64,000 bases of DNA from Diacronema lutheri (lineage: Eukaryota > Haptophyta > Pavlovophyceae > Pavlovales > Pavlovaceae): assembly GCA_019448385.1 (NCBI GenBank), contig JAGTXO010000014.1:310001-374000 (forward strand). Reading direction: 5' to 3'. The notes beneath the pieces are model-generated. The model was not told the DNA's origin. It saw only the letters and a list, made by a program, of their open reading frames with translations, and did no database searches. The translations under genes were made by a program, and so were the position numbers. Within the stretch, counting starts at the first letter, position 1; each line of letters begins with the position of its first letter. Shown here piece by piece: positions 26,124 to 49,822 of the stretch.

Positions 26124-29100
26124 ATGCCCGAGTTTGCGCCGAAAACGCGCGGGTTGGCTGAGCTGCTCGACGAGCCCGAGCTTGGAGATGTCGACCTTGC
26201 GCTCGCCCAGGGCGGCGAGCCCTCACAGCACGCGCTCCTCGTGCGGCTCGCGCCAAAGCTCGCTGCCGCGCGCGTCTCTGACGATGCGCCGGCCGCGCAG
26301 CTAGCGCGGCTGCTGCGCGTGATGCAGGCGTGCATGGAGGCGGAGGGGCTGCGCGCCGAAAAGGCCGACGAGGACCTAGACAAGCTCAAGCTCTCGCACG
26401 AGGCTGCCGAGGTCGACCGGGCGAAGGAAATGTCCGAGCTCCGCGAGGAGCTCGCCGACGAGAAGGCAACGAGCAAGAAGGCGCGCGCGGACGTGCGCGC
26501 GCTTGAGGACAAGCTGCGTGAGCGCGAGGAGGAGCTGCGCGAGAAGAGCGAGGAGATCGAGGACACGCGCGGCTTCATGCAGAAGGAGGCGTACGTCTCG
26601 GGCGGCGCGGGCAAGGCAGCCGATCAGATGCGCCAGCGCATCTCCCAGCTCGAGGAGGAGCTACGCAACGCGCAGGCGCGCCGCAGCGCCCGCGCTGCGC
26701 CGCGTCGCGCCGCGCGCCGCGCGCCGCGCGCCTCCCGAACCGCCGGTCGCCCTCGCACGTCGCCGAGCCGCGAACGCCCGTCCGGCGCGCACGCCGCCGC
26801 GCGCGCACGCGGTGCGCAGGCGGAGAAGAAGAGGCTGGCGACCAAGCTCACATCGTCCGACGAGCAGCTCGAGGCGCAGCGCGAGCAGCTCGAGAAGGCG
26901 CGCAAGGACGCGCGCGAGCAGCGCAAGGCCATCGAGGCCCTTGAGGAGGAGGTCGAGAGCGCGCACGAGAAGCTGCAGCAGAAGGAGGAGCGCGTCAAGG
27001 CGCTCGCCGACGCGACGCTCGCCGAGCGCGAGGGCGAGCGCGACCGCAAGCGCGCGATCCGCGAGAAGGACTCGGAGCTCTCGTGCGCGCCGTCGCGGAG
27101 CGGCGCAGCTGCTGCGCACCGAACCAACCGCGGCCCGCTCGCCTTGCGGTCGCGCGCGCCGCGACACGCTCGCCGCTTTCCACTTTTCACCGCCCGTCCG
27201 CGCCGCGCGACTTGGCCCCACCGCGTGCTTGCCGTGCGCCGTCGACCCGCGCGCGCTGCGCAGGCTGCTGCACAACGCGCTCGAGCGGCTGGAGAAGGAG
27301 CGCGACGAGCTCAAGCACGACCTCGAGGATGTGCTCGGCGAGGCGCAAGTCAGCGCGTCCGACGTGAGCGTGCTGCGCGAGCGGCTCGCGGCCTCGCAGT
27401 CCGAGGCCGCGGCGGCCGAGCGCGAGCGTGCCGAGGCGGACGCCGAGCTCGAGTCGCTGCGCGAGGCGCACGCGCTGCTGCAGGACGAGCACGACGACCT
27501 CTCCGCCGCGGCGGACAAGCTCGAGGAGACGATCGCCGACCTCGAAGCGGAGGTTGGCCGGCGCGGCGACGAGCTCGACGACAAGGACGAGCAGCTTGAG
27601 ACGCTCGAAGACGAAGTACGCGCCCTTCGGCAGGAGAAGGCGGACGGCGGATTCGGCGGCGGCGGCGGCGGCGGCGGTGCGGATGGCACGCCGACGGGCG
27701 GCGCGCAGCGCGAGCTCCTCGACGAGGCGCAGCGCCGCGTCGAGGAGCTCGAGGCGAAGCTGCTCGCCGAGCAGGACGACGCCGACCGGCGCGTGGACGA
27801 GGCGCGCGCGTCGCAGGCCAAGGCGGTGGCCGACGCGGGCGCGGCGGCGGACAAGGCGGTGCGCCGGTTGAGCGAGGAGCGAACGCGCGCGTCCGGCCTC
27901 GAGACGAGCGTTGCTGACCTCGAGGCCGAGCGCGAGAAGCTGCGCGCGCGCATGGGCGCGTACGAGCGAGGTGTGTACGGCCTGCGCGAGGCGGTTGCCG
28001 AGATCGACGAGCTCGTGGCGCTCCTCGCCGCGCGCGACGCGGACGTGCGCGAGATGACGCGCGAGCGCAACAGGCGCGAGGAGCAGCTCGAGGAGCTCAA
28101 GTACGAGACAGAGGCGCTGCGCGACCGGCTCGGTGTGCCGCCCGGCGTTGGGTACGACCTGTCGGCGCTTCGCCTCCGCTCGCAGGTGCAGCTTGAGAGC
28201 CTGCGCGCGCAGCTCCTGCACGCCGAGGACGAGCTGGGCGCGCTCGAGGCGGAACGGCTCGACCTGAAGCGCAAGCTGCGCACCAAGGCCATCGCCCGCG
28301 GCGAGCGCGCCGCGCAGCTCAAGGTGTGCGCGCCGTATCGCGCGGTCGCCGCGCGCGCACGCGCGCGGCGACCCGCCCACCCGCCCACCCGGCGTGTGCG
28401 CGCCCAACCCGCCGCCTCGTTGCGCGTGTGCAGGTGAGCCTCGGCGAGCTAGCGATGCTCGACGAGCTCGAGACGGAGCTCGACGAGTTGGACGGCGCGT
28501 CGCCCAGCCTCGCCAAGGAGGTGCTGATTGCGCGGCGACGCGAAGGCATCAAGGCCGCGGAGACGGCACTTCAGATGCGAGAGCGGGCGGACGGTGCCGC
28601 CGTCGAGGTCGCGCGGCAGCGCGCGCGCGCAAACGAGCACGAGGTGGCGGCGCGCGAGCTCGCGCTGATGAACGACTCGCTACGCGCGCTGCTTCGCGAG
28701 ACGCGCGCGGCCCTTGCTGGCGTCGACGCGTCGCCTGCGTGGGGCCAGCCCGGCGGCGGTGGCGGTGGCGGCGGCGGCGGCGGTGGCGGAGGGATTCGCG
28801 CGCCCGCGCAGATGAGTGCGTTGGCCGACCCGCTCGCCGCGTTCGCGGCGGGCGGCGGCGGAGCGCAGGCGCTCGACCCGCTCGCCGCGTTCGCGGCGGG
28901 CGGCGGCGGAGCGCAGGCGCTCGACCCGCTCGCCGCGTTCGCGGGCGCGCGCAGCGGCGGCGCTCCGCCTTCCGACCCGCTCGCCGCCTTCGCCTCCGCG
29001 CGCGGTGCCGCGCCTTCGGACCCGCTCGCCGCGCTCGCGGCGCTTGGGGATGGCGGGGGCGGCGGCGGTGCTTGCGCGCCGCCCGTGCCGTCCGCGCCGA

Positions 29101-32100
29101 CCGCGCGCCTGACGGCCGTGTCTGAAGTCCTTGCGCGCCTCGACTCGCAGCTTGCTTCGCTCGAGGCGGACGAGGAGCTCCTGCGTGACGTGGGCGGCGG
29201 CTCGGACGGCGGCTCGGGCCTCGGCACGCCGCGCGGCGCGGCCGGCGAGGCCACACGCTCGCCCGCCGCCTCGGCCAGCCTCGGCGGCTCGATTGGAGGC
29301 GGCGGCGCGATGGGCGCAATCGGCGGTGGGCTTCCTGCGGGCGCGGCGGGCGCGGGCGGGCGACGCGTCAAAGAGAGGCTGCAGGCGCTCACGTCGGAGC
29401 TGGCGCTGCGTAACGCCGACCTCGAGGCCGCGCGGCGCGCGCGCGCCAAGGCAGAGGACGAGGCGACCACACTGCGCAAGGAGTTGCGGTACGCGCGCCA
29501 GGCCGCGGGGCTGTCGGCGACGGCGGGCCTCGCGGACATGGCCGCGTTCCCGGCCGAACTCCTCGCGCCGAGCGCGCCGGCCACGCCGGCGGCGGGCGCG
29601 CGCCGGCCTGCGGCGGGCGATCGCGACGACGACCTCGCCGGCCTCACGCCGCGCTCCGCCGCCGACGCGACGGCGCGCGCGCGCGCGCGCGCGCGCGCCG
29701 AGCGCTCGTCGGCCGGGCTGCCGGGCGCGCCTCCGCAGCCGCAGCAGGGCGCACACGTGCACGCGCCGGGCGCGACGGTGCCGCTCGGCATCGCAGCGTC
29801 GCTGCACGCGCAGCTCGTCGAGGCAATGGCGACGCTCTCGCAGCGCGACGACGAGCTGGGCGCGCTCGAGGCGGAGCTGGGCGTCTACCGCAGGTCGCTC
29901 GACGCGCTGCACGAGGCGCAGCGCCAGCTCTACGCCGACGGCGTCAGCGCGCAGCGAGAGGCGGCGGCGCGCGCGGACGAGGCGCGCGCGGCGGCGGCGC
30001 TGTCGTCGGCACGGCGCGACGCCGACGGCGCGCGCCTCGCCTCGCTGCAGGAGGTGGTCGACGCGCTCGGCGCGAGCGGCACCGAAGCGCAGCGCGCGAC
30101 CGCGACGATGGGCCGGCAGCTCATACTGCTGCGCGCCGCGCGGCTCGAGGAGCGGCGGACGGCGGCGGCGGCGCGCGCCGAGCTCGGCGCGCTGCGCGCC
30201 GAGCGTGCCGCGGCGGCCACCGAGGCGGCGAGCGCCGCCGCCGAGGCCGAGCGCGGCGCCGCCGAGCTGCGCGCGGCCGCGCGCGCGGCCGACGTGCGCG
30301 CGGCCGTCGCCGAGGCGCGGCTCGCCGCGTTCGCAGCGGGCGGCGAGCTGCGCGCGGCGCGCGCGGACGCTGCGCGCTTCGCCGCGACGGCGGCGGACCT
30401 TGCGCAGCGCGAGGCCGCGCTCGCATCCGAGGCCGCTGACGCGCGCTCGCTGCGCGCGCAGCTCGCCGCCGTGCAGGCGCAGGTTGCGACGCACGCCGCG
30501 CGCGCGGAGGCCGCGGAGGCCGCGGAGGCCGTCGCGCGCAAGCACGCGCTCGCGCTCACGCGCAGCGCGGACGGGCACGCGCCAGCCGACGGCGGCGCCG
30601 ACGGCTCGCACACAGCGCGCCGGCGCGCGGCGGTCGAGCGCGCCGCGCGAGAGTCGTCGTCGTCGTCGGCGCGCGCCGGCTCGCCGAGCGGCTCGGCGCG
30701 CGGCGCGCGCGGCGCCGGCGCAAGCAATGGCGGCGCGGCATTCGACCCGATCGCGCTCGCCGTGAGCGGTGGCGCCGCCGCGCCGCTCCCGTCCGACGCG
30801 CCGCCGTCGCGCACGCTCGTGTACGAGCTCGAGGCCTCGGAGGCGGCCGCGCTGAAGCGCGCGGACATCGTGCAGCGGCAGCTCGCCGATGCGGACGCCG
30901 ACCGCGTCGAGCTACGCGCGCGCTTGGACGCGGCGGCCGCGCGGCACGCGCAGCTCGCCGCCGCGCTCGACGCGGCGCGCGCCGCGGAGGGCGACGCGCG
31001 CCGCGCGCTCGCCGACGCGCTGCCTGCGTCGGAGGCATCCGCGCTGCGCGCGCGCGTCGACGTGGCTGAGCGCGACGCGGTGCGCGCGCGCGCAAAGGCG
31101 GAGCGCTCGGCAGCGGGCGAGACCGTTGCGGCGGCGCGGGGCGTGCAGCTCGAAGGCAAGCTGCGGGCCCTCGCGCAGCAGCTCGCCGCGGCGGGCGACG
31201 CGGCGATCGCCTCCGCCGCGCGCGACGACGACGCGGCAGATGGTGCGCGCGCTCAATGGGAGACTTTGCAGCTGCGGCTGGCTGAGGCCGACGCGCGCCG
31301 GCGCGAGAGCGCGCAGCGCGACCGCGCCGACGCCGAGCGCGCCGCCGCGCGCGCGCTGCGCGCCGAGCTCGAGCAGGAGCGCGCGGACGCGGCGGCGGCG
31401 CGCGCGCGCGCGCGCGCGCGCGCGAGGCCGAGTTGCAGCAGCGCGTGACGGCGGCCGAGTTGCGCGCGGTGGGCTCGGTATCGGTGGCCGAGCTGTCGCG
31501 CGCGTCGGCCGCGCTCGCCGACGCGTCGCGCCGCGCCGACGCGCGTGCGGCCGATGCGGCCGCGACCGCCGCGGCGCTCGCTGACGCGCGCGTCGAGGCC
31601 GACGGCGCGGCCGCGCGCGCGGCCGAGGCGGAGCGGTTGCTGCACGCGTTCAAAAAGGGGCCCGACGCGACGGAGCGGCTGCTCTCCCTCGCGCAGCTCG
31701 CCGACGAGACCGCGCGGTTGCGGCTCGACGCGCTGCGCGCGCGCCGAGAGGTGGACGCGTTGCGCGACGCGTGCGCGCGCGAGGCCAAGCGGACGGCCGA
31801 CGCCGCCAGCGCGCGCGACGCGGCCGAGGAGGCGCTCATCCGCTCGGAGGAGCGCGCAGCGCACGCTGCGAGGCAGGCGGTGCTCGACAAGGGCTCGCTT
31901 CGCGAGCTCCTCGCGCAGGCCGTCGAGGCGGCCGACACCGCCGACACCGCCGAATTTGGCGCGGCCGCGGCCGCCGCGGCCGCCGCCGAGCGCGGCGTTG
32001 CCGACGACGATCGCGGCGACGAGCTCGGCGCCGACCCGCTCGCCGACGCGGTGGCGGGCGCGACGGCGCAGCCCGCCGCGGCGGCCGAGCGGCGGCGCGC

Positions 32101-35100
32101 GCGCGAGGTCGCGCGCGCCGCATCGTTGGCGTCCGACGAGCGCGGGAACGCAGCCATCGTAGCTGGCGCGGCCGGCGCGACGCCCGGCGCGCGCGCGCGC
32201 GCGGTCGTCGACTCGCTCGAGGCAGTGCGCGAGCGGGCGGCAGGTCTGCAGGCGTCGCTCGACGCGGCGGAGCGCGCGCTCGCCGACCGCTCGGCAGAAG
32301 CGGCGCGCCTGCGCGACGAGCGCGACGAGCTCGCCGAGGCGCGGCGCGTGCAGCAAGCGGAGCTCACGCGCGCCAACGCTGAGCTCGCGCGGCTGACGAC
32401 CGCCGCGGAGGGCGCGGTCGAGGCGAGCGTCGCGGCGACGGAGGCGCGCGGGATGGCGCGCGACGGCGACGTGCGCGCCGCGCGCTACGCGCAGCTCGCG
32501 CACATGCAGGTCGCCGCCGAGCGCGCCAAGCTCGAGACGAAGACGGCCGAGGCGGACCTGCTCTCCGACCAGCTTCGCGAGGCGCGCGGCGCGTTCGCGC
32601 GCGCGGTGCAGGCGCACGCCGAGCAGGTGGACGCGCTCAACGCGCAGCTGCACGCGCTCAAGGAGGGCGAGGCGAACGCGCTGCGCGCGCAGCTCGACCG
32701 GATCGACGCGCTCACAGACGCAGGTGGCGCGCGCGGCGCCGGCGCGGCTGACGCGGCTGCGCTGCTTGAGGCGGCGCTCGCCGAGAAGGACGCGGCACTC
32801 GCCGAGTTGTCGACGCGGCTGCGCGAGGCGACGCAGGAGAGCGGCGCGATGCGCGAGCGGCTGCGCGATGCGACGGCCGAGGCGGCGCGGATGCGCGAGG
32901 CGCTCGCCGACGCGCGCGCCGCGCACGCAGCGGCTGAGCGCGCGGCGGCCGCGTCCGCGTCGAGCGCCGAGCGCGCGATGGAAGAGGCGCTCGCGATGGC
33001 GGCCGCGGCCAAGCCGGCGGGCGCGCCGTCGCCCGGCCGCACCGTCGGCACGCCAACGCGCGCGGCGGCCGGCGCGCCCGCCGGGCCCAACGTCGTCGCG
33101 CACCTTCGCTCGCAGCTGCGCGCGCGCGACGGTCGCCTCGACGACCTGCAAGCTGCGCTCAAGAAGTTGCGCGACGACCTGCTCGAAGCGGCGGAGCAGG
33201 GCGCGGCGGCCAAGCAGGAGGCGGCGAGCGCGCGCGCCGAGCGCGACGCCGCGCGCGAGGCCGCGCGCGAGGCGGGCGCGCCCGCCGACGGCGGCGCGTC
33301 CGCCGCGCGCCGCGCGAGCGAGCTGCACGCGCGGCTTCGCCGCCTGACGGACGAGGTCGCGCCGCTGCGCGCGCGCGAGAACAGCGCGCGCGAGGAGGCG
33401 CGCGCCTTGCATGCCGAGGTCGCGCGCCTCGAGGCCGTCGCGCACCGGCTCACCGCCGAAAGGCACTCGGAATCCAAAAAGGCGGCCGAGCTGCGCGCGT
33501 CGGAGGCGGCGCTGCGCGCGCGCGCCGAGCGCGCGGACGCGGCCGCTGCCGACCTGAGGACGCGCCTCGCCGCCGCGGAGGCGGTCGTGCGCTCGGCCGA
33601 TCGAGTCGTCGCGTCGGATGCGCGGCCGGGCAGCGCGCCCTCGCCCGCCGACGGTCGCGCGCTCGAGCGCGAGCGAGCGGCGCGCCGGCGCGACGCGGCG
33701 CGCGCGGCGGACGCACGCAAGCAAGCGGTCACGGCGGTTGAGGCTGGCGGCGTGGCGGTCGCCGAGGAGGCGAGCCGCACCGCCGTGGCGACCGCGCGCC
33801 TCGCCGCCGCCGAGCGCGCGCGCGACGCGGCGCTCGCGGAGGCGGAGGCGCTGCGGCGCGCGCTGCGCGAGGCCGAGAGGACGCGGCGGGCCGCGCCGCC
33901 GGCCACGCCCGCCGCGCCGCCGGCCACGCCCGCCGCGCCAGCCGCTCCGCCCGCGCGCATGGCCGGCTCGCCGCCGCGCGCCACGGCCAACGCGTTGGCA
34001 GAGGGCGTGCTGCCCGCCGACGCGGCCGCCGTCGGCCCGCCGCCCGCCGGCAGCCGCGCGGCTGCGGTCGCGCGATGGGAGGCGGAGAAGCGCACGGCAC
34101 GGCGGCTCGAGGCGCTGCGGCAGAAGCTGGACGAGCGCGGGCGAACGTTGCGCACGACAGAGGAGAGGCTCGTCGCCGAGACGGCGCGCGCGGACGGCGC
34201 GGTCGCTGACAAGGAGGCGGCGATGCGCGACGCGGCGGCGTTGCGCGCGCACGTACGCGCGGCGCGGCGCGCGCCGCTCGGCCAGTCCCCGCGCGACGCG
34301 CGCTGCCGCTCACGCGCGCGCGCGCGCCGCTGCCCCCGCCGCCGCCCCCGCGCTCGCGCACGCGCGCGCGCCCGCCGTGTACGCGCCTCTTTTCAAATGC
34401 GGCTCTGCGCTTGCAGGTCGCAGAGCTGCGGGCGGCGGGTGCGGGCGGCGGCGGCGGTGACCCAGTGCGCAGCGCCCTCGGCGCGCTGCGCAGCCGCGAG
34501 GAGCTCGCGAGCGCGCTCGACGAGGCGCAAGCGGAGGTCGATCGATTGCGGCGCGCGGCGGCCGCAGCGGCCGGCGCGCGCGCGCCCGCCCAGCCCGCCG
34601 GCTCGGACGCGAGCCCGGCGCTGCTCGAAGCGCAGCTCGAGGCGGAGACCGCGCGCGCTCGCGTCTCACAGCTCGAGGTGCGCGCCTCGCAGCGCCGCGC
34701 GTGCAGCGCCGCGCGCGCCGCCTTCGACCAACGCTCAGTCGAAACCGCGACGCGCGGCGACGCGCGCACGCGCTCAGGGCCGCGTGCGCGAGCTTGAGAT
34801 TTACCGGCAGGCGGTGCGCGCCGCAGAGGCGCCGACGCGCGCGTCCGAGACGCCGAGCGCACCCGGCGCGAGCGGCGCGAGCGGCGCGGCCGCGCGGCGC
34901 GTCGCTGCCGACTCCAACGCCAAGCAGCTCGCCGAGGCGAAGACCGCGCTCGAATCGCTCCGGCGCGTGGCCGAGTCGCTGCGCGTCGACAACGACAACC
35001 TGCGCAAAAAGGCGGCGCGTGCCGAAGCAGCCGCCAAGCGCGCCGACGAGAGCGCGGCGGGTGCGCGCACGCACGCGCCGCGCGCTGCGCGCTGCGCGCT

Positions 35101-36142
35101 GCGCGCTACGCGTGCACACGCAGCCGCGCCGCTGGCGCGCGCCCGCGAAGCGCCACCGCACCCTCACGCGCGCGTGCGCGCCTGCGCCCGCGCTCGGTCG
35201 GGCCGCTCGCCGCAGTCGCCGCGTCAGCAGGCGGCGGTGTGGACGGACGTACGCCCACCGAGCTGCGCTCGGCGAACGCCGAGCTGCAGTTGGCGCTGGC
35301 CGACGCGCGCGCACGCGCGACCGCCGCGCGAGAGGCGCACGCGCGGCAGTTGAGTGAGGTACGCTTGCTGGCGGCGGCGATGCGCGTGGCGTCGCGCGCG
35401 CGGCGGTCGCGCGCGCGCTCGCGCGCCTCTCACGCGCCGCCGCGCGGCCGCTACCTCGCGTTCCTCGCCCGCCCAGCACCGCGTGGCCGCGCGGAAGCAG
35501 GTGGCGGATGCCGAGGCCACGCGGCAGCAGCTCGCGGCCGAGGTGGACCGGCTGCGCGCGGCGTACGTCGAGCAGCAGGCGCGCACCCGCGCGTCCGGCG
35601 CGGACCGGCAGCAGTCCGGCGCGGACCGGCAGCAGTCCGGCGCCGGCGGCGGTGCGCGGCCGTCGAGTGGCGGCGACGCGGCTGCGTTCGAGGCGCTGCG
35701 CGCCGCGCTGAGTCAGCGCGAGACCGAGCTGAGCAGGAAGACCGCCATGCTTGTGCAGCTCGGCGCGCAGCTCCGTTCAGAGGGCGAGCGGGCCGACGCA
35801 GCAGAGGAGCGCGCGGACGCGCTCGGCGCGGACGCGGTCACGGACGGGGCGCGCGAGCGCGAGCTTGGCGCGCTGCGCTCGGCGCTCGAGGGCCAGCGCG
35901 CGCAGCTCGATCTCGCTGAGCGCGAGCGCGCGGACCTCGCCGCGCGCCGCGCCGACGCTGATCGCGAGCTCGCGGAGTTGCGCGCGGCGTACGGCGCGGC
36001 TCAGGCCGAGCTGAGCGCGCTCTCGCCCGAATTCTTTGACGAGGTGGAGGAGCTCAAGTACAAGTACGCGCAAGGCTCGGTGCAACTCGCACGGTATGAG
36101 CGACTGTATGGCCGCCTGCCGCCCGAGCCCGGCGCGGCGTGA
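26124..36142 (+). CDS. CEP290: CEP290, ciliary transition-zone coiled-coil protein
   Basis: A coiled-coil protein of about 3,009 residues (human 2,479). Exons: 26124-26675, 26820-27082, 27264-28323, 28434-34252, 34417-34677, 34778-35060, 35231-35358 and 35477-36142. The key segment at about 27950-28320 reads 'MGAYERGVYGLREAVAEIDE', 'ETEALRDRLGVPPG' and 'LEAERLDLKRKLRTKAIARG', matching human MGAYEQGEYGLSEAV..ENEALRERLGLEP..LEEERLDLKKKIRQMAQERG. The C-terminus has 'FFDEVEELKYKYAQG' (human FFEEIEDLKYNYKE). CEP290 forms Y-links gating cilia. Intron 1 (26676-26819) is GC-AG. Within exon 4 the frame changes by two bases at a (CG)12 tract, 31401-31424; both sides are clearly coding. Confidence 0.85.
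26676..26819 (+). other. GC-AG intron 1 of CEP290
   Basis: The exon ends CGCAACGCGCAG, the intron starts GCGCGCCGC and ends GGTGCGCAG. The next exon (AEKKRLA..) is in the same frame. No GT occurs near the exon end. Confidence 0.6.
28827..29039 (+). repeat. In-frame DPLAAFA repeat in CEP290
   Basis: Five copies of an Asp-Pro-Leu-Ala-Ala-Phe/Leu-Ala core. The first two belong to nearly identical 48-bp units with a Gly4-Ala-Gln-Ala-Leu spacer; the later ones have diverged spacers. It follows a (GGC)n poly-glycine run at about 28752-28790. Confidence 0.85.
31401..31424 (+). repeat. (CG)12 dinucleotide tract inside the CEP290 coding region
   Basis: Twelve CG units lie where the reading frame must change by two bases, one unit, between the upstream frame (ends 31448) and the downstream frame (EAELQQRV..). 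This fits a repeat-length difference, or less likely a very short GC-AG intron ending at TTGCAG (31438). Confidence 0.8.
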
Positions 36143-37642: not shown

Positions 37643-40241
37643 ATGGCGCACGCGCGAAGATTCACGCTGTGCGCCGCGGCGCTTGTCGGCTGGACGTCGG
37701 CGGCGCTGCACACGCGCGTGCCCACGGCGGCGCTGCGTCGTACAGTTAGCTCGGGCGCACGCACGCACGCGCTCGCGTCGGCCACCGCGCCGGCCGCCAA
37801 CCCGCTCCTCGACCAGGCCGCGCTCCCGCGCTTTGGCACGATCGACGCGTCGCACGTGCAGCCCGCGATGAGCGAGCTGCTCGGCGAGTTCACGCGCGGG
37901 CTGCGCGCGCTCGAGGCAGATCTCTCGGTTGCGCTCCGCTCCGACCAGCCAGGCACGCTCACATGGGCGTCCGTCGTCGAGCGCCTCGAGCGGCTGCGCG
38001 CGCCGCTCGAGTATTCATACGGCGTCGTCAGCCATCTGACGGGCGTCAAATCGTCGGACGCGCTGCGCGACGCGCACCAGCAGGTGCAGCCACTCGTCGT
38101 CGAGGCCATGTCCAGCTTCCAGCAGTCGCGCCCTCTCTGCGACGCGTACCGCCGCCTGATCGCTGACTCGGACGCGGCGGTCGTTGCCGGCGACGCGCCG
38201 ACGCTCGACGACGCACAGCGGCGGATCGTGCAGAGCGCGCTCGCCGAGATGGAGCTGGCGGGCGTGGCGCTCGAGGGCGAGGCGCAGGCGCGTTTCAATG
38301 CGATCAAGCTCGAGCTCGCCGAGCTTGCCACCACCTTCTCCAACCACGTGCTCGATGCGACCAAAGCGTACGGCCTCGAGCTTACGTCTCGAGAGCAGGT
38401 TGCCGGCTTCCCGCCATCGCTCCTCGCAATGACGGCGGCGGCGGCGGCGGCGGCGGGCAACGCGCACGCGACTGCGGAGGCGGGGCCATGGCGCGTCACG
38501 CTCGACGGCCCGTGCTACGTCTCGCTCATGCAGAGCGCGTCCGATCGATCGCTGCGTGAGCGCGTCTACCGCGCATACGCGACGCGCGCCGGCGCGGGCT
38601 CCGCGTTTGACAACTCGGCGACGGTGCGGCGCGTGCTTGAGCTGCGCGCGAGCATGGCGGCGCTGCTCGGGCGCGAGTCGTACGCGCACGTCTCGCTCGC
38701 GCGCAAGATGGCGGGCGAGCCAGCCGCCGTGAATGCCTTGATCGAGCGCGTGCGAGACGCAGCGCGGCCGGCAGCCGAGGCGGAGCTTGGCGAGCTGCGC
38801 GCCTTTGCCGCCGAGCGCGGGCAGGCGGAGCCGCTCGCGCTGTGGGATGTGCCGTACTGGGCGGAGCGGCGGCGCGAGGCCCTCTTCGCCTTCTCCGATG
38901 AGGAGCTTCGAGCCTACTTCCCGCTCGAGCGCGTGCTCGACGGCCTCTTCGCACTCGTCGACAAGCTGTTCAGCGTCGCGGTCGTGCGCGCCGACGGCGA
39001 GGCCGAGGCGTGGCACGCCGACGTTGGCTACTACAAGCTGATCGACCGCGCGACGGGCGAAGAGCGCGCTGCCTTCTTCCTCGACCCGTACGCGCGCCCG
39101 GCCGAGAAGCGGCCTGGTGCATGGATGGACGTGTGCACGGGCCGTTCAGAGGCGCTCGGCCGCAAGCCCGTCGCGTACCTCACGTGCAACAGTGCGCCAC
39201 CCGTCGGCGAGATGCCCGCGCTCCTCGCGTTCCGCGACGTGCAGACGCTCTTCCACGAGACGGGCCATGGTGCGCGCTCACCCGCGCCGTCGGGCACCCC
39301 GCTCACCCGCGCCGTGGGGCACCCCGCTCACCCGCGCCGTCGGGCACCCCGCTCACCCGCGCCGTCGGGCACCCCGCTCACCCGGACGTGGGGCACCCCG
39401 CTCACCCGCGCCGTGGGGCACCCCGCTCACCCGCGCCGTCGGGCACCCCGCTCACCCGCGCCGTCGGGCACCCCGCTCACCCGCACCGTCGGGCACCCCG
39501 CTCACACGCGCCGTCGGGCACCCCGCTCACCCGCACCGCGCGCGCGCGCATACGCCGCGCGCTCACACGCCGCGCGTAGGCCTACAACACATGCTCACGC
39601 GCGTGCGGTACGCAGACGCGGCCGGCATTAACAATGTCGAATGGGATGCGGTCGAGCTGCCATCGCAGTGGATGGAGAACTGGTGCTACCACCGCGAGAC
39701 GGTGCGCTCGTTCGCGCGGCACTACAAGACGGGCGAGCCGCTCCCCGACGAGCTCTTCGACAAGCTCGCGGCCGCGCGCACGTACAACGCGGGCCTCGCG
39801 ACGCTGCGCCAGCTCCTGTTCTCAAAGCTTGACCTCGAGTTGCATGGCGACTCGAACGCGTTCCGTCCGTCGCAGCCCGGCGCCGGCGGCTCGCCGTTCG
39901 ACGTGCAGCGAGCGCTCGCGCCGCGCTACGCCGTGCTCGAGCCGCTGCCTGACGACATGTTCCTGTGCAGCTTTGCGCACGTTTTTGCTGGCGGCTACGC
40001 CGCTGGGTACTACTCGTATTTGTGGGCGGAGGTGCTCAGCGCGGACGCCTTCGCCGCGTTCGAAGAGGCGGGCCTGGCCGATGACTCGCAGCTCCGCCGG
40101 CTCGGCGCGCGCTTCCGCGAGACGGTTCTCGAGCTCGGCGGCTCGCGCCATCCTTCTGAAGTCTTCGAGGCTTTCCGTGGCCGCCAGCCCGACGCGCGCG
40201 CGCTCTTGCGCGAGAAAGGCCTGCTGCCAACGGGCCCGTAA
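37643..40241 (+). CDS. M3-family oligopeptidase (OOP/PrlC type), probably organellar
   Basis: Two exons: 37643-39269 and 39580-40241; 762 residues. This is a zinc oligopeptidase that degrades short peptides such as cleaved transit peptides. The HExxH motif is 'FHETGHG', split by the intron (CAT G|GC), then '[18 protein letters not shown]', '[16 protein letters not shown]' and '[20 protein letters not shown]', all diagnostic of M3A peptidases. The N-terminus ([20 protein letters not shown], then basic/Ala/Thr-rich) looks like a signal or plastid-type leader; plant OOP is dual-targeted to plastid and mitochondrion. An earlier ATG at 37604 is possible. The 310-bp intron is mostly a 25-bp minisatellite and happens to be open in one frame. 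Confidence 0.88.
39276..39525 (+). repeat. 25-bp minisatellite, ten copies, in the M3 peptidase intron
   Basis: Ten tandem copies of a 25-bp unit (GCTCACCCGCGCCGTCGGGC plus ACCCC), with a few point variants and one copy short by 1 bp. It begins six bases after the splice donor at 39270. Confidence 0.92.
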
Positions 40242-40390: not shown

Positions 40391-40599
40391 TCACGCCTTG
40401 GCCGGAAATTTCTGAGACTTGAGCAGCCGCTTGAAGTGCGCGCTGCCCACGGTGCAACGCGGGCCTGCGGGCGCGGCGCGACTCCAAACGGGCGCGCCGC
40501 CCCTGGCGCGCCGCACCTGCTCTCGCGCTCAGCCGTCCCGCCGCCTTGGCTGCGCGCCTTCCGCGACCGCCGCGGTTGCAGGGACGCGCCCTCGAGCAT
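40391..40599 (-). CDS. Possible 44-residue basic protein, divergent from the myosin gene
   Basis: Tentative two-exon gene: 40599-40517 and 40442-40391, intron 40443-40516 with AG|GTGCGG donor and GGGCAG acceptor in matching phase. The product starts [18 protein letters not shown] and ends 'AHFKRLLKSQKFPAKA', a basic amphipathic helix that looks coding. I do not recognise a family. The start codon overlaps that of the myosin gene on the opposite strand (both read from one CATG at 40597-40600). It could be chance; the only support is the splice phase and the composition of the tail. Confidence 0.35.
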
Positions 40600-43500
40600 G
40601 TCGGTGCCCGACGATCTAACCAAGCTCGTGAACCTCGACCCCGAGTCCATCGAGCAGGCCCTCAAGAGCCGATATGAGGAGGACAAGATCTACACCAACA
40701 TCAACTCGCTGCTCGTTGCGCTCAATCCGTACAAGACGATCCCAGGGATCTACTCGCCCGAGCGGCTCGCTGCGTACACGCAGTACGGCGCCATGCCGCC
40801 CGAGCCGCACGTCTACTCGATCGCGGCGGACACCTACCGCGGGCTGCTCGAGGCGCACAGCCAGTCGGTCATCATCTCGGGAGAGTCCGGAGCGGGTGCG
40901 CGCTCGGCGCGCTGCCGCGAGAGTCGACGCCGCTCGTCTCGCCGTCGCGCGCGCGCGTCGCTCACGATGGCGTCGCATGTCGTGCGGGCGCGCTCGCGCG
41001 CGCGCTTGGCGCGCAGGCAAAACGGAGACGTCCAAGATCATCCTGCAATTCCTCGCGCAGGCCGCGAGCTCAAGTGGCAGCACGTCTGGCCTCGAGAACC
41101 GCGTGATAGCGTCGACGCCCGTGCTCGAGGCGTTTGGCAACGCGCGCACGGTCATGAACGACAACTCGAGTCGCTACGGCAAGTTCCTGATGCTGCAGGT
41201 GCGCGCCGCGCCGCTCGCGTGTGCCTCCCAGCGGTGCGGCTTCACGCATCGTCTTCCGCCTGCGTCACCACCGGACGGGCGTCTTGGCTGGCGAAGCGCT
41301 TTGCCCTCTGGCGGCGAGCCGCAGGCTGGCCGCGCCCGACCGACTTGGCAACGCGCTGGCGCAGCGGCGCGCTGCATGGCTTGGCTGCGCCAGCGCGTTG
41401 CCTAAACTTGCCCGGAGCCGGCGCTCGGGTTTGGCGCCCGTGCCTACCGTCATTGCACACGGCGCTCACCGGTCTGCGCCCGCGCCCGCGCGCCCGCCCG
41501 CCCGCCCGCCCGCCCGCCCGCCCGCGCGCCCGCCCGCCCGCCCGCCCGCCCGCCCGCCCGCGCAGTTCAGCGTCAGCGGCAAGATCATCGGCGCGTCGAT
41601 CTCGACGTACCTGCTCGAGAAGAGCCGCGTCGTCTCGCACGCGCCCGGGGAGCGCAACTACCACGCCTTCTACTACCTGTGCGCGGGCGCGGCGGGCAAG
41701 TCGCACGGCATCGGCGCGGCGGACACGTACGCGCTCCTCGGCGCGGGCAATGGCCTGCGCTCCGACGCCGACATGTACGCGCAGACGGAGGCGGCGCTCA
41801 AGCGCGTCGGCTTCTCCGCCGCCGAGTGCAACTCGACGTGGAAGTTGCTCGCCGCCGCGTTGATGCTGGGCAACCTGACCTTCGGCTCAACGCGCGACGC
41901 CGACTCTGCGATCGGCGAGCCGAAGCTGCTCGCGCAGATCGCCGCGCTGCTCTGCACGGATGAGGCCGGGTTGGTCTTCTCGCTCACCAAGCGCAAAATC
42001 CGAGCGGGCCGTGAGTTCATCGACACACCGTCATCGGTCGAGCAGGCGCAGTACATGCGCGAGGGGATGGTCAAGGCGATGTACGCGAAGCTCTTCGAGT
42101 GGATCGTCTCGCGCGTCAACGAGTCGCTCGCGCTCGGCCGCGTCGAGCAGGGCGCGGGCGCGGGCACGGACGCGCGCTTCTTCATCGGGATCCTCGACAT
42201 CTTTGGCTTCGAGATGTTTGAGTCCAATTCGCTCGAGCAGCTGTGCATCAACTACACCAACGAGAAGCTGCAGCACCGTTTCAACGAGGCGGTCTTCGCG
42301 TCGGCGCAGGAGGAGAATGCCGTCGAGGGCGTCACGGTCGAGGACGCCGACCTCGCCGACTTTGACAACCAGGAGGTGCTCGACCTGATCGAGGTGCACC
42401 CGACGGGCGTCCTCGCGATGATCAACGAGGAGTGCATCGTGCCGCAGGGCTCGGACCTCACGCTGCACGAGAAGCTGAGCAAGCAGCACGCCGCTTCGCG
42501 CCGCTTTAAGAAGGTCCTCAGGCACAAGGACCGCTTCGAGATCGTGCACTACGCGGGCAAGGTCGTCTACTCGAGCACCGGTGACGCGGCGCGGCGCGGC
42601 GCGGCACGGCGCCGCAAGCCCGGCACGCCGGGCGCGGCGCGCGGCCCGCGCGCCGCGCCGCGCCGCTCATCGCGGCGGCGCCCCGCCTCTCTGGCCGCGC
42701 CGTGCCGCTCCACGCGCTCATTCCTTCTCGCCCCGCTGCCGCAAACGCGCGCGCGCAGGCATGCTCGGCAAGAACAAGGATACGGTCTCGGAGGACATGC
42801 TGGTCCTCATGCAGGCGTCGGACGAGCCGTTCGTGCGGCGCGTGTTCGCAGACACGGCCGAGCAGGGCGCGCTGCTCGCGCGCAAGCGCGGCGCAAAGTT
42901 CCAGGGCGTCGTCGCAAAGTTCACGCGCCAGCTCGACGAGTTGATGCACATCCTGGACTCCTCCGACATGCATTTCATCCGGTGCGTCAAGCCCAACATG
43001 TCGAAGGCCGCCGACCGGTGGGACTCGGACGTGCTCATGCGACAGCTGCGCTGCTCGGGCGTGCTCGAGGTCGTGCGCGTCTTCGGCATGGGCTACCCCG
43101 ACCGCGTGCCCCACGGCGAGATCGTCGGCCGGTACGTTTGCGTGCTCAAGCCCGCGCAGCGGCCCGACCCGGCCGCGACGGAGAAGGTCGCGTGCGAGAG
43201 CGTCCTCGGCGCGTTGCTCGGGCGGAAGGAGTACGCCATCGGCCGCTCCAAGGCCTTCCTCAAGTCGGGCGTGCTCGCGCGGCTGCGGCTGCTGCGCGAG
43301 GAGCAGATCGCGCTGAAGAGCTCGTATATCCAGGCGCGCGCGCGCGGCATGATTCAGCGCAAGAAGTGGAAGGTCGCGTGGCAGCTGCACATTGAGGAGA
43401 AGGAGCGGATCGCCGAGGAGAGGCGTCGCGCGGAGGAGGAGGCGGAGCGCAGGCGCGAGGAGGCGGCGGAGCGCAGGCGGCGCGAGGAGGAGATCTCGCG

Positions 43501-46500
43501 GATGAACGAGAAGGAGAGGGCGCGCGCGCTCGCCGAGGAGCGCGCGAAGGAGGCGGAGCGCAAGGCCGAGGCGCTCGAGGCCGACCGGCGCAAGGCGGAG
43601 GAGGAGAAGTATAGGCGCGAGCACGACGAGCGCAATGCCGAGGAGCCTGACTCGTGGAAGAAGACGAACCACGACGGCGCGGGCGCGCGCGCCGACGCGT
43701 CCGGCTTGGGCTTCGCGCTCAACATGGGCAAGGTCTCCAACGCCGCGGCCAAGGCGCAGGAGGAGGCGGCGCAGACCAAGCAGTGGACGCCACGCGCGCG
43801 GCCCAAGGACGCGCCGCAGCAGTCGGCGCGCTACCAGTCCGAGTTCAAGGCGCTGCCTGAGGACATCCTCGAGTACGCTGTCTACCTGGGGATGGACCCG
43901 ACCGTCGACCAGGACCTGCTGTGGATCGCGGAGGAGGCGTTGATGGCGCCCGACCCGCCCGGCTGGGTCGAGATGCTCGACCCGCGCGGCCTGCTCTACT
44001 TCTTCAACGAGACGACGGGCCAGTCGAGCAGGCAGCACCCGCTCGACGAGCACTTCCAGAACCTCTACCTCAAGATGAAGATGCAGAAGGCCGTCACCGG
44101 CGTGAGCGGCTCGGCCGGCGGCTCGAACGCGAACATCACGACCGAGGAGCTGCAGAAGCGGCGCGAGGCGCTCGCATCCGAGTTCCAGGCGTCGATGGCC
44201 GGCGTGGGCGGCGAGCTGTCGGAGACGATGACGTCGATCTCGCAGGCCCTCTCGCTCTCAACGCCGCGCTCGACCAAAGTGCTGCAGGAGAAGTTTGGCA
44301 TCTCCAAGCCTGACACGGACGTGCGCGCGCTCCTCATCAATCCGGCGCGCTGGACGGACCCGTCGCCGCTCATGAACGAGACGGTCTTCGACAAGCACGG
44401 CGCGTCGGGCCTCTTCCCGCGGCTGACGCTGCACCTCGTCCTCACCGACAACTACAGGGCCTTCGCCTTCTCCGCCACCAAGCGCGTCAACTCGACACGC
44501 ACCGAGTTCGTCGTCTCCCTCGACCAGGAGCCCGAGGCCGCCTCGTCCGCCGGCGCATCGTTCGCGGGCCGGCTGCGAACCAACCAAAAGGCGCAGGAGT
44601 GGGTGATGCACGACGACTCGAACGACCCGTACGGCCTCAAGACCGGCCAGCCGCGCCGCGAGCTTGGCCTCATCATCTACAAGAAGAAGGTGATTGGTCC
44701 GATCCAGGTCGAGCTCGTCGTGCCGCGCGTGCGCAAGGACGGCGCGTGCGCGCAGTTCCGCCCACACACGCCCGAGGAGTCCATGCTGCAGCTGTACAAG
44801 GCGGGGCGCGTCGAGCACATGTTCGTCCTGCGCGGCGCGATCGTCGTCCAGCCCGGCGCGATCGTCGAGCTCGTGCACGACAGCGCGCCGCAGAAGGGCA
44901 TGATCATCTTCCGCGCGCGCAAGTTTGCCGACGGCCATTGGAGCATGGCTTACATGCACCCCCTCTCCGCCTTCCAGGCGCGCGCGCTCGGCCGGCGCTG
45001 CCGCGCGCGCCGCGCGCGCGCGCGCGCGCGCGCCCGCACGCGCCGCGCTGACGCTCGTGCGACGCGCGCGCCCGTCGACGGCGTGCTGGGCGCGCGCGCG
45101 CGCGCTCGCATCACAGGCGTTCAACTTCTTGCTGTCGATCGTGCACAACCCGATCACGTCGGCGCTCGACGCGGCGCCGCGCTCCGACGCGGAGGGCAGG
45201 ATTGGACTTTCGGCCGCGCGGCCCGCCGACGCGCACAGCGCGCCCGAGGTCGCCGCCGTGCCGGGCCGGGGCCTGCCCGTAATCCTGAACACGGCGACGC
45301 TCGAAGGCCTGGGCGACGCGGTGTACGCGCTCGCGGTGCTTGAGCACAAGGTCTTCTCCGGCCTCTACTCGGGCGACATCCAAGTATGGCATATGGATCA
45401 TTACATCAATCTGCCCTCTGGCTCCAAGCCCGAGTACAACTGCCTGCGGGGACACACGGCCGCGGTCTGCGCGCTGCTCATCGACGGGCGCTCGCTCATC
45501 TCCGCGTCGGACGACAAGACGATCATCGTGTGGGACCTGAACACGTTCAAGAAGCGCGGCACGCTCAAGGGGCACACGCATCGCGTGCGCTGTCTCGCGC
45601 TGCACGGCACGACGCTCGTCTCCGGCGGCAACGACAAGAAGATCAGGGTATGGGACATCGCGACGTACGCGCTGGCGAACACGATCGAGGCGCACAGCAA
45701 CTGGATCCGGGGCATCGCCATTTACGAGGGCACGCACTGCATCACCGGCTCGCGCGACAAGACCGTCAAGGTGCGCGCGCCAGTCCAGCCGTGGGCCGCG
45801 CCATGCGCACCTCACCGAGCGTGTCGAGCGCGCCGCTCGCGCCACACGCGCCGCGCCGCACCGCCGGGTTGCAAAGGTGTGGGACATGAAGAACTGGAAC
45901 CAGATCGGAACTTTCTCGGCATCTTCCGACGTGTACGACGTCGCCGTCGGCGGCGGGATGGTCTACGCGGCATGCTCGGACTTCAAGATCCGGATCTGGA
46001 ACCTGCAGACGCTGCAAAAGTCGCACATGCTCATCGGGTGAGGGCCGGCGAGCACGAGCAACCAGCGCATCGTCTGCGCGCGCGCCACGGCTCGCGGCAG
46101 GCTGCACGCCGTGCGCTGGCGCGGCGCGCGTGGCGCCATGCGCAGCACCCACCGCCCGCGCCTTCCTCACCCGCGCCTGATGCGCGCACGGCGCGCATCG
46201 CGCCCTCCACGTCGCTCCGTCGGCGGGCGCGCGCGCGCCTGCGCCTGGCAGGCACGATGGGATCGTGCGCTCGCTCCACCTCGAGGCGGGCAAGCACACC
46301 CTCTATTCCGCCGCCGAGGACAAGAAGGTCAAAGTGTGGGACCTCAAGTCGGGCGAGTGCGCCACGCTCTTCGGTGCGCGCGACGCGACGCTCGGCGCCG
46401 CTGCCGCACACGCGCGACCCCGCGCTGCGCCCTGCGGCGTGCCTTACGCGCGCCACTGCCCGTGCGTGGCGCACAGGCCACGCCAAGTTTATTCGGTGCG

Positions 46501-46583
46501 TGGTCTACGAGAGCAAGACCAAGACGCTCTACTCTGCGGGCGACGACGCAAAGATTAAGATGTGGGAGGCGCGGCAGAAATAG
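40598..46583 (+). CDS. Myosin motor fused to CEP164-type WW module, Tubby domain and WD40 propeller
   Basis: Eight exons: 40598-40895, 41017-41198, 41566-42580, 42759-44977, 45117-45770, 45877-46037, 46252-46373 and 46477-46583; 1585 residues, every junction in phase. Motor (1-680): P-loop GESGAGKTE (split by intron 1), '[20 protein letters not shown]', 'HFIRCVKPN'. One IQ-like helix and a charged coiled coil follow (690-790). Residues 860-945 match the CEP164 N-terminus: '[15 protein letters not shown]', '[18 protein letters not shown]', '[11 protein letters not shown]'; the second WW tryptophan is absent. Tubby domain (1015-1255): '[12 protein letters not shown]', 'FAGRLRTN' (mouse IGKLRSN, phosphoinositide site), '[20 protein letters not shown]'. 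WD40 blades (1285-1585) end '[11 protein letters not shown]'. Exons 4 and 5 each span domain boundaries, so the fusion does not depend on splice choice. Confidence 0.88.
41347..41402. repeat. Perfect 18-bp inverted repeat in myosin intron 2
   Basis: Arms GGCAACGCGCTGGCGCAG (41347-41364) and its exact reverse complement (41385-41402) are separated by a 20-base loop. No target-site duplication is evident. Confidence 0.9.
41491..41561 (+). repeat. (CCCG)n tract before the exon 3 acceptor of the myosin gene
   Basis: About 17 units of CCCG with a few interruptions end four bases before the CAG at 41565, in the position of a polypyrimidine tract. Confidence 0.85.
44978..45116 (+). other. GC-AG intron 4 inside the Tubby domain
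   Basis: The donor is CAG|GCGCGC and the acceptor CATCACAG. It splits the Tubby C-terminus exactly between 'PLSAFQ' and 'AFNFLLSIV', matching mouse 'PLCALQAFAICLSS', so the boundary is protein-supported. Confidence 0.75.
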
Positions 46584-46730: not shown

Positions 46731-48299
46731 ATGGCGCCAATCGGGATTGCGACGCTCGTCGCCTTGGGAGCAGCGGCGGCGTCCTCACCCGGGGGCAACC
46801 TTGCCGCGCGGCTGCGCGGCGGCCCGCCCGGTGCGGTGGAGGCCGCGCGGCTGGCGCTCGAACGGCGAGGCGTCCGCGTGCTCACGGAGGCTGACGACGC
46901 GTCGACGGCCGCCGCGTCGTACGCCTTCTCGCGCGCCACGGGCCTGTACCGGCTCGAGGCGCGCCCAGACGGGTCGGACAGCGCAGAGCTGCCCGCGTGG
47001 CTCGGCGGTGCGAGCATGTCGTATGAGGCCGTTGCCGAGGCGCGCGGGCTCGGCTTCCTCGCGCTGCCCGAATCCGAGCGCGAGCGCAGCATCGAGCGCC
47101 CGCGGTACGACGCCGCGTGGGGCGAGGCGGCGGAGGACGAGGAGGTGGGCGTGCGCTGCTCAGCGTCGGGCTACATCATCTCGCCCATGCCCCACGCCGA
47201 GGTCAAGGCCGCCGCCGCAAGCCTCTCCGACGCCGCGCGCGCCGTTCTGCTGCGCGGCGAGACGGAGCGTCCGCGCTCGCACGACGCAACGCCAGCCGGC
47301 GCGGGCGTGTACCGGTGCGCGGTGGGCGGACTGCCGCTCTTCTCGAGCCAGGCGAGACGCCCGTCTACCACCGGCTGGCCCTCGTTCGTCGAGCCGCTCG
47401 ACGAGCAGCACGTCATCTACCGTCCGGATGAATCTGGCGGGCTGGCACGTACCGAGGTACTCTGCGCGCGCTCGCGCTGCCACCTCGGGCACGTCTTCCA
47501 CGAGGCGGGCGGCCGGCGCTTTTGCATCAACGGCGCTGCGCTGCGCTTCGACGCGTGCGACACATCCCCGCGCGAGCTCATCCTCGCAGCTGGCTGCTTT
47601 TGGGGGTTGCAGCACGCCTTGCTGCGGGTCGCGGGCGTGCTTGATGCGCACGCGGGTTACGCGATGCTCGAGCTGCCGACGTCGGCGGGCAGCGGCGGCG
47701 CATTGCGCGAGGCGGCGGCGGCGGCGCGGCGCGCGGTGACGGGCTGGGGCACGCCGCCGCTGCCCGAGGCTACGCTTTCCTATGACGCCGTGCGTAACGG
47801 TTCGAGCGGCTGGGTCGAGGCGGTGAGTGTGCGCTTCAACGCGGAGACCGCGCCCGCGGCGCTGCTGCTCGACCTCTTCTTCCGCGCGCACGACGCGCGC
47901 AGCTCGCGTGTCGAGCCGTGGCCCGCAAATTACGCATCGGCCATCCTCGTCCCGTCGTGCACGCCGGCGGCAGCGGCCGCCGAGCTGCGAGCTGCCGCGA
48001 TGGACAGTGCGGCGCGCGCGCTCGCCGGGCTGCGCGAAGTGGACGCGGCGGCCACCGGCGGCGCCGGCGCGGCACCGCCCGAGCGCCTTGCCACCGTGAT
48101 CGGCGGTGTGTCGGACGGCATCGTCGCGCGCTTTGTGCGCGCGGAGGAGGCGCAGCAGCGGTACCTCGCCAAGCGCGGAAAGCCGCTGGTCGTGCGCAGG
48201 TTTGCAAAGCGTGGTTCGCCGTCGACGAGGGCGCGCGCGGATGCCGCAGCTGGTGTGGGTCTGGGAGGGGCTTCACGGCCTTCACCCAGCACTTCGTAG
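46731..48299 (+). CDS. MsrB-MsrA methionine sulfoxide reductase fusion, secretory leader
   Basis: Intronless, 522 residues. Residues 1-20 (MAPIGIATLVALGAAAAS..) look like a signal peptide or plastid-type leader. MsrB domain (about 180-290): 'YRCAVGGLPLF', 'TGWPSFVEPL', 'RCHLGHVFHEAGG' and catalytic 'RFCINGAALRF'. MsrA domain (about 290-480): 'ILAAGCFWGLQHAL' with the catalytic Cys, 'GVLDAHAGYA', and a 'SGWVEAVSVRFN' strand. The pair repairs R- and S-methionine sulfoxide. The order B-A is the reverse of the common MsrA-MsrB fusions. One of the usual zinc CxxC pairs is broken, and the MsrA 'NRQGND.G.QYRS' segment is replaced by 'SSRVEPWPANYASA'. The legumain gene starts 68 bp after its stop. 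Confidence 0.82.
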   Translation: MAPIGIATLVALGAAAASSPGGNLAARLRGGPPGAVEAARLALERRGVRVLTEADDASTAAASYAFSRATGLYRLEARPDGSDSAELPAWLGGASMSYEAVAEARGLGFLALPESERERSIERPRYDAAWGEAAEDEEVGVRCSASGYIISPMPHAEVKAAAASLSDAARAVLLRGETERPRSHDATPAGAGVYRCAVGGLPLFSSQARRPSTTGWPSFVEPLDEQHVIYRPDESGGLARTEVLCARSRCHLGHVFHEAGGRRFCINGAALRFDACDTSPRELILAAGCFWGLQHALLRVAGVLDAHAGYAMLELPTSAGSGGALREAAAAARRAVTGWGTPPLPEATLSYDAVRNGSSGWVEAVSVRFNAETAPAALLLDLFFRAHDARSSRVEPWPANYASAILVPSCTPAAAAAELRAAAMDSAARALAGLREVDAAATGGAGAAPPERLATVIGGVSDGIVARFVRAEEAQQRYLAKRGKPLVVRRFAKRGSPSTRARADAAAGVGLGGASRPSPSTS

Positions 48300-48367
48300 A
48301 AATTTCAATCAAGAACAGAAATGATGAGCCGACGAGTGCACTCGCTCAAAGGCGCGAGTCAAGAATA

Positions 48368-49822
48368 ATGGGAAGGACGGCATGGACGGCGGCGATGTGC
48401 TTGGCGCTCGCGGGTTTGGCGCGCGCGGAAACCTGGGCGGTTCTGGCGGCGGGCAGCTCGGGCTTCTTCAATTATCGACACCAAGCCGATCTGTGCCACG
48501 CCTACCAGGTCCTCGTGCAGCACGGCGTACGCGAAGCGCACATTATCACGATGCTCTTTGACGACGTCGCGACCGACGGGCTCAACCCTTTCCCTGGCGA
48601 GCTGTTCAACGGTCCAGGCGGCGATGACGTGTACAGGGGCTGCGCAAAGCATTACACGGGCGCCGCCGTCACGCCCGACCACTTTGTCGCCGTGCTCACC
48701 GGCGACGCGGCGCGCTCGGGTGGGCGGCCGGTGCTCAACTCGACGCGCGCCGACGATGTGTTCGTCTTCTTCGTCGACCACGGTGCGACGGGCCTGATCG
48801 CGTTCCCCAATAAACGCGTGCTGCACGCGCTCGACCTCACCGCCGCGCTTGCCAAGGCGCACGCCGCCGGCCTCTACGCGCACCTCGTCTTCTATCTGGA
48901 GACGTGCGAGTCGGGCTCAATGTTTGAGCGCCTCCTCCCGCCCTCGCTCCCAGTGTACGCGCTCACGGCGGCGAGCGCGACCGAGTCGTCGTGGGGCACA
49001 TTCTGCCCGCCGGACGACGTCGTGCGCGGCACGCACATGCAGACGTGCCTCGGCGACCTCTTCAGCGTCACCTTCATCGCGGACGCCGCGCGCCTGGCCC
49101 CGCGCGTGGCACCCAGCGTGCGCGCGTCCAACGACACGTCCTCCTCCCCCGCGCGCATCTTTCCGCCACGCGTCCGCGACGAGACGCTGCACATCCAGTT
49201 TGAGCGCGTGCGCGCGGCCACGTCCCTCTCGCACGTCCAGCAGTACGGCGACGTGCCTTCGTCGTACGATGCGCTCGCACGCGAGTTTGAGGCGGGCGCG
49301 CCGTCGGCCGCCGCGCGCGCGCTCGCGCCTCCGCGCGACCGCGCGCGCGCGCCCGGCTCGGCGGCCGATGCCGAGCTGCGCACCAGGTCGGCCATCGACG
49401 CGCGACGCATCCCGCTCCACCTGCGCCGCGCGGCACTTGCGGCGAGCGGTTCGGCGCGCGACGCCGAGGCGCTGCGGCGCGAGCTCGCCGACGCCGACGC
49501 GGCCGCGGCGCTCTTCCGGCGCCTCGTCTCGGCTTCCGTCGGGCTGCGTGGCGCGGACGCGAACTCGCTGCTCTCGCCGCCGTCCGCGCCCGCGGATGAC
49601 TTGCCGGCCCACGCCGAGTGCCACGCGCAGGCGGTGCGCGCGTTTGAGCGCGCATGCGGCGGTTGGACCGAGCATGCGCTGCCCTTCTCTGTGACGCTGC
49701 TCCGGCTCTGCGCGCGGAGCGGAGGCATGGCAGAGCCGATTGTGCGCGCCATACGGGGCGGCGCGTGCGCGCGACAGCCACGGGCTCCAGCCGCGCTGGT
49801 GCGGCCGGAGTGGGCGGCCTGA
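48368..49822 (+). CDS. Legumain (asparaginyl endopeptidase, C13)
   Basis: Intronless, 484 residues, beginning with a signal peptide (MGRTAWTAAMCLALAGLARA). Catalytic landmarks are intact: 'WAVLAAGSSGFFNYRHQADL', 'FFVDHGATG' (His) and 'YLETCESGSMF' (Cys), then 'YALTAASATESSWGTFC'. Legumains cleave after Asn in the vacuole or lysosome and mature other proteases; the C-terminal 170 residues correspond to the autoinhibitory prodomain, with a four-cysteine-like pattern near the end. The first ATG after the MsrBA stop is used because the leader starts there. Confidence 0.9.
   Translation: MGRTAWTAAMCLALAGLARAETWAVLAAGSSGFFNYRHQADLCHAYQVLVQHGVREAHIITMLFDDVATDGLNPFPGELFNGPGGDDVYRGCAKHYTGAAVTPDHFVAVLTGDAARSGGRPVLNSTRADDVFVFFVDHGATGLIAFPNKRVLHALDLTAALAKAHAAGLYAHLVFYLETCESGSMFERLLPPSLPVYALTAASATESSWGTFCPPDDVVRGTHMQTCLGDLFSVTFIADAARLAPRVAPSVRASNDTSSSPARIFPPRVRDETLHIQFERVRAATSLSHVQQYGDVPSSYDALAREFEAGAPSAAARALAPPRDRARAPGSAADAELRTRSAIDARRIPLHLRRAALAASGSARDAEALRRELADADAAAALFRRLVSASVGLRGADANSLLSPPSAPADDLPAHAECHAQAVRAFERACGGWTEHALPFSVTLLRLCARSGGMAEPIVRAIRGGACARQPRAPAALVRPEWAA

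Follow-up and report, generated by a model that had tools for sequence, protein, structure and literature searches.

The haptophyte Diacronema lutheri carries, in a 64,000-nucleotide stretch of contig JAGTXO010000014.1 (positions 310,001 to 374,000 of the forward strand, hereafter the window), a gene that appears to join a myosin motor, a CEP164-type WW module, a Tubby (Tub) domain and a WD40 propeller, in that order in the DNA. We read its predicted product, at a probability of roughly 0.6, as an actin motor that would grip PI(4,5)P2-bearing membrane through Tub, and adaptor proteins through the WD40 propeller and a changed WW module. The four-part architecture had been proposed in an original prediction made from the DNA letters, and at the level of sequence it is confirmed by Pfam matches for all four parts in the spliced protein: Myosin_head at residues 5-667 (3.3e-198), WW at 898-926 (4.1e-7), Tub with its best stretch at 1046-1190 (1.5e-15) and WD40 (4.1e-35), each exceeding its curated cut-off and each taken from the best 25 of 37 families.

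Gene model and coding evidence

Joining the 8 exons across 7 introns gives an open frame of 1585 aa. The gene and its parts are as follows, in coordinates of the window.

40598-46583 (+): whole gene, 8 exons and 7 introns, 1585 aa, predicted from DNA
40598-40895, 41017-41198, 41566-42580, 42759-44977 (+): exons 1-4
45117-45770, 45877-46037, 46252-46373, 46477-46583 (+): exons 5-8
40610-43264 (+): myosin motor, residues 5-667, by Pfam Myosin_head, with introns 1-3 inside
43319-43369 (+): one IQ-like motif of 17 residues (686-702), by eye from the translation
43397-43663 (+): charged, single-alpha-helix-like lever extension, about residues 712-800, by composition statistics
43844-44098 (+): CEP164-N-terminal-type module, residues 861-945 (two helices, WW, helix), by PDB sequence matches
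43955-44041 (+): WW domain, residues 898-926, by Pfam WW
44009-44011 (+): E916, at the position of CEP164 F77
44030-44032 (+): R923, at the position of CEP164 W84
44390-44977 (+): Tubby domain, exon 4 part, residues 1043-1238, by phmmer to tubby structures (best 6.2e-14)
44978-45116 (+): intron 4, GC-AG, between the Tubby strands and the Tubby C-terminal helix
45117-45152 (+): Tubby C-terminal helix in exon 5 (12 residues), aligned to tubby QAFAIALSS across the junction
45303-46580 (+): seven-bladed WD40 propeller, residues 1301-1585, by Pfam WD40, with introns 5-7 inside

All introns are GT-AG except intron 4, which is GC-AG, and the length of every one is a multiple of three plus one, so that retaining any single intron would shift the frame. 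GC content by codon position within the exons is 0.46-0.66 at the first, 0.38-0.48 at the second and 0.83-0.95 at the third position, a pattern that continues across the linkers between domains and is absent from the introns. Between Tub and WD40, in a linker of 38 residues, the pattern is weak (0.79/0.63/0.89). A single ORF at 42479-45343 holds the end of the motor, the WW and Tub without any splicing; the claim that the fusion holds independently of splice sites therefore stands for these three parts and falls for WD40, which needs the GC-AG intron 4.

In none of 300 single-base shuffles does the longest ORF (442 aa at most) reach the length of exon 4 (739 aa). As a control this is weak, since spurious ORFs run long in this GC-rich DNA, as exemplified by an antisense ORF of 579 aa over the exon 4 region. 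Elsewhere in the window, GC content is near 80% at 28197-35919, where long ORFs overlap on both strands, and a 1355-aa ORF at 31286-35350 has no Pfam match; ORF length alone consequently means little here. The case for one predicted protein is instead built mainly on domain matches that share one frame, and the possibility that the myosin gene is a spurious ORF was ruled out by these matches together with the codon pattern.

The same window holds several other features. At 39275-39538 a 25-base unit is repeated about 10.6 times; the array separates the two halves of a Peptidase_M3 gene and seems to sit in an intron. One ORF at 46605-48299 matches SelR (MsrB) and partly PMSR (MsrA), as a methionine sulfoxide reductase fusion, while an ORF at 47798-49822 gives a strong Peptidase_C13 match. 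On the reverse strand, an ORF with WD40 repeats at 5045-6985 is a separate gene.

Motor domain and lever

The motor domain is complete, with positions 2-679 of the 679 in the Myosin_head profile matched, and it belongs among the myosins by its P-loop, switch I and switch II. We take the motifs GESGAGKT at residue 95, NDNSSRYGK at 147 and DIFGFE at 371 to be the nucleotide-binding ones, and Glu310 presumably occupies the TEDS position. Compared with PDB sequences, the motor scores 455.7 to 428.5 bits among the best 60 of 145 matches, a range that does not separate myosin classes.

Behind the motor, residues 686-702 form what we take to be an IQ-like motif; the IQ family itself does not appear among the best 25 of 37 Pfam families for the spliced protein. 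The stretch that follows (residues 712-810) is 64% charged and 7% hydrophobic when Ala is left aside, its best heptad register has a hydrophobic share of 0.11 at the a/d positions, and its net salt-bridge score is 20, a value reached by 7 of 5000 shuffles, whose mean is 0.5 (sd 6.2). By these statistics a single alpha helix appears to fit the stretch better than a coiled coil, which was ruled out since the a/d positions are hardly hydrophobic. The lever would be short, with its one IQ-like motif, and probably extended by this stiff charged helix.

Tubby domain and its predicted lipid site

All six sequences matched by the Tubby part in phmmer at E up to 10 are tubby or TULP proteins. The alignment to tubby falls into two pieces, a first one with 43 identical residues among 146 and a C-terminal one with 14 among 44. 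The homology to the Tubby/TULP C-terminal domain (1i7e, 1s31, 8fh3) is found at both ends and spans the fold including the C-terminal helix, as expected of a Tubby domain. A structure prediction for the WW module together with the exon 4 part of Tub, run with no alignment and with no last helix, had a mean pLDDT of 36 and gave no usable Tubby fold.

For residue numbers we assume that the 1i7e chain is numbered from 241, which fits the letters (K330 and R332 in the GKLR motif, RKRKK at 301-305), and we further take R363 and N310 of tubby to be lipid-pocket residues. On this numbering R1103, R1105 and R1131 occupy the positions of tubby K330, R332 and R363. The canonical PI(4,5)P2 pair K330/R332 is Arg/Arg here, a conservative change at K330 with R332 kept, in agreement with the earlier statement that basic residues at the phosphoinositide site had been retained. 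Unlike tubby and TULP proteins, the domain is fused to a motor, has partly lost its second basic site (RKRKK at tubby 301-305 reads TKRVN, with 2 of the 5 basic residues kept) and is shortened, with 10 residues before the C-terminal strands compared with 28 in tubby, about 18 fewer; tubby N310 is replaced by E1081. In tubby, residues 301-305 are described as a basic second PI(4,5)P2 site, and both R332H and K330A/R332A lower PI(4,5)P2 affinity (PMC10445746). Judging from the residues at these positions, PI(4,5)P2 binding by the myosin Tub is likely, with an affinity that may be weak or less cooperative because of the TKRVN second site, the Glu in place of N310 and the shortened domain. A lipid-marked cargo for the myosin-Tub protein is plausible.

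Such a lipid grip would also suit a tether in place of a transporter, with the motor anchoring PI(4,5)P2 membrane to actin at, for example, endocytic or secretory sites. This alternative, which we consider unlikely, gains from the presence of one IQ-like motif only and from the role of PI(4,5)P2 as a plasma-membrane signalling lipid (PMC10445746), and loses from the long charged helix, which we infer could allow a long step.

CEP164-type WW module and its peptide groove

The reading of an actin motor with a changed WW module draws on the part of the tail that precedes Tub. Among PDB sequences, the best match of this module is the CEP164 N-terminal domain (7nwj at 9.8e-17, 7o3b at 1.6e-16), and ordinary WW proteins trail it at 8e-8 and weaker among the best 60 of 64 matches. 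Used by themselves, the 38 residues of its first two helices return two matches at E up to 10, both of them CEP164 (best 2.9e-4), and over the aligned module 30 of 87 residues are identical to CEP164. Foldseek with a 96-residue piece (model pLDDT 60) likewise places CEP164 chains at ranks 1-5, matches that lean on sequence given their low TM-scores (0.31-0.34 by query length) and the low-confidence model. The CEP164 module has been defined as a WW inserted in a helical bundle (PMC8752127), and the myosin module shares this helix-WW-helix scaffold with the CEP164 N-terminal domain (7nwj, 7o06, 7o0s, 7o3b), keeping the defining P59, W62, H86 and P87 along with A56, Y73, F75 and S82. Its CEP164-type identity, also part of the original prediction, is upheld by these comparisons.

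The module differs from CEP164 in being embedded in a myosin tail and in its ligand groove. CEP164 binds TTBK2 through Y73, F75, F77 and W84, aided by an N-terminal arm, and binding is cut strongly by F77A and W84A and moderately by F75A (PMC8752127). This groove is incomplete in the one myosin sequence at hand, where only Y73 and F75 are kept (as Y912 and F914) and E916 and R923 replace F77 and W84. Q932 replaces R93, and the arm (CEP164 residues 1-18) falls outside the alignment. With Glu and Arg at the positions of F77 and W84, TTBK2, the known ciliary ligand, would not be expected to bind. The module is, as far as its residues tell, CEP164-like in scaffold and not in the known ligand groove, and the term "ciliary-appendage signature" that had been attached to it was overstated.

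These residues bear directly on a second alternative, a ciliary motor whose CEP164-type module would dock at basal-body appendages while Tub delivers membrane cargo, bound through PI(4,5)P2, to the flagellum. Several observations favour it: the CEP164-type module is well supported by PDB matches, its first two helices and Foldseek, and tubby and TULP3 carry ciliary cargo. A flagellar precedent exists in the kinetoplastid "myosin XXI" of the proximal flagellum of Leishmania (PMC7188243), which takes its number from another numbering and serves as a precedent only, not as a sign of kinship. Weighing against a ciliary motor are the substituted groove, the Gln at R93 (a ciliopathy mutation site) and the unaligned N-terminal arm, as well as the route of the Leishmania protein, which gets to the flagellum base via UBA-like domains (PMC7188243); the Pfam-named neighbours (M3 peptidase, methionine sulfoxide reductase, C13 peptidase) give no ciliary hint either. 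Overall, the parts make a ciliary role a reasonable guess, with the groove result speaking against it and no result speaking directly for it, and the full ciliary-motor account seems doubtful to us.

WD40 propeller and the intron 4 junction

The adaptor-binding part of our preferred reading also calls on the propeller. Six of its seven blades have ends recognised by pattern, at residues 1374, 1414, 1455, 1494, 1536 and 1577, and blade 1 (IQVWH) was identified by eye. Designed and generic WD40 proteins lead the PDB matches (best 60 of 454), so the binding partner is unreadable from the propeller; flagellar DAW1 and Pf20 are among the matches listed, far below the best.

Since intron 4 must be removed, the join between Tub and WD40 depends on splicing. 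One AG acceptor alone is present at 45060-45139, and at 44930-45059 there is no in-frame GT donor and there are 12 possible in-frame GC donors, so that the exact donor was picked by tubby homology. Against each of the six tubby/TULP sequences the spliced Tub end gains 3.0-3.7 bits over intron read-through. In the WD40 ORF an in-frame ATG first occurs at 45393, past blade 1. We consider the predicted join across intron 4 supported but not proven. The converse reading, in which the model alone unites a myosin-WW-Tub gene that stops after exon 4 with a second, independent WD40 gene, is very improbable: it can appeal to a GC donor that is one among 12 with the GT alternative absent, to the small gain in bits and to the weak codon pattern of the Tub-WD40 linker, but it is opposed by the last Tubby helix sitting in exon 5 in the WD40 frame, by the absence of a start codon until after blade 1, and by read-through of exon 4, which yields an Arg/Ala-rich tail instead of that helix.

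Relation to known myosins

A 2014 survey (Sebe-Pedros) describes the tails of myosin XXI in heterokonts and haptophytes as diverse, with IQ, WW, PX and Tub among their domains, and counts 53 myosin genes in Emiliania huxleyi; its passages on these tails leave unstated which species have Tub and whether WW and Tub occur in one protein (PMC3942036). The Diacronema protein has WW and Tub by Pfam, both among these class XXI tail domains, and because the class is described as diverse this tail does not decide membership. WW and Tub are thus already known as tail domains of one myosin class (PMC3942036), and the novelty first claimed for the fusion was overstated in this respect; the main text of that survey does not mention WD40, and its passages on these tails do not describe the WW as CEP164-like. 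The word "WD40" has 0 occurrences in the main texts of the 2014 survey and of a 2017 survey (PMC5583752), the latter listing 79 myosin classes and 287 orphans and expecting more in haptophytes, and it appears in the domain key of a 2007 survey (PMC2375034). The name XXI is itself used variously, for an arthropod class in the 2007 survey (PMC2375034) and for the kinetoplastid flagellar myosin elsewhere (PMC7188243), and myosins XXX and XXI are reported as expanded in oomycetes and kin (PMC5795050). Class IV myosins share a WW, which they carry alongside MyTH4, and Tub and WD40 are unnamed for them in the passages of PMC3942036 on this class. MyTH4 does not appear among the best 25 of 37 Pfam families for the spliced Diacronema protein.

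Apicomplexan myosins have WD40 tails and TULP4 combines WD40 with Tub, each sharing two parts with the protein described here; to our knowledge, neither unites a motor, a CEP164 module, Tub and WD40. In the literature covered, which for the surveys means passages of their main texts, we found no myosin with a CEP164-type WW, Tub and WD40 together, and the covered portions of PMC8215601 and PMC4501334 contain nothing on such myosin tails. As far as seen, the WD40 propeller is new here, and so are the single-helix-like lever and the recognition of the WW part as CEP164-type.

We also scanned contig collections with parts of 388, 183 and 389 aa out of the 1585. No relative was confirmed in viral contigs (1 pattern match for the WW-Tub part, 15 for the motor end), and none with the WW-Tub part in prokaryotic genome contigs (41 pattern matches); missing relatives say little, as the collections scanned were viral and prokaryotic. 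NCBIfam gave no match for exons 4 and 5.

Proposed mechanism and implications

In the reading that we favour, the whole gene would encode one long actin-based motor with nucleotide-binding motifs. Its tail would dock in three ways: through a CEP164-type helix-WW whose peptide groove is altered, through a Tubby domain that has the basic pair for PI(4,5)P2, and through a WD40 propeller of seven blades. Tub would most likely keep the tail on a PI(4,5)P2-bearing membrane, plasma or flagellar, and the propeller and the WW module would most likely bind adaptor proteins. The motor would then most likely pull or tether that membrane or cargo along actin. A more speculative version, in which this one protein hauls PI(4,5)P2 cargo along actin to the flagellum base and its changed CEP164-type groove reads a different, lineage-specific ligand, strikes us as a long shot.

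If made as modelled, the favoured actin motor would combine in a single chain the means to move on actin, to recognise phosphoinositides and to dock proteins through two modules. The gene would then offer a way into the protist myosins whose tails carry WW and Tub, which have been little studied, and would allow one to ask whether cargo handling by Tubby domains can be driven by actin and whether the CEP164 module may work outside distal appendages.
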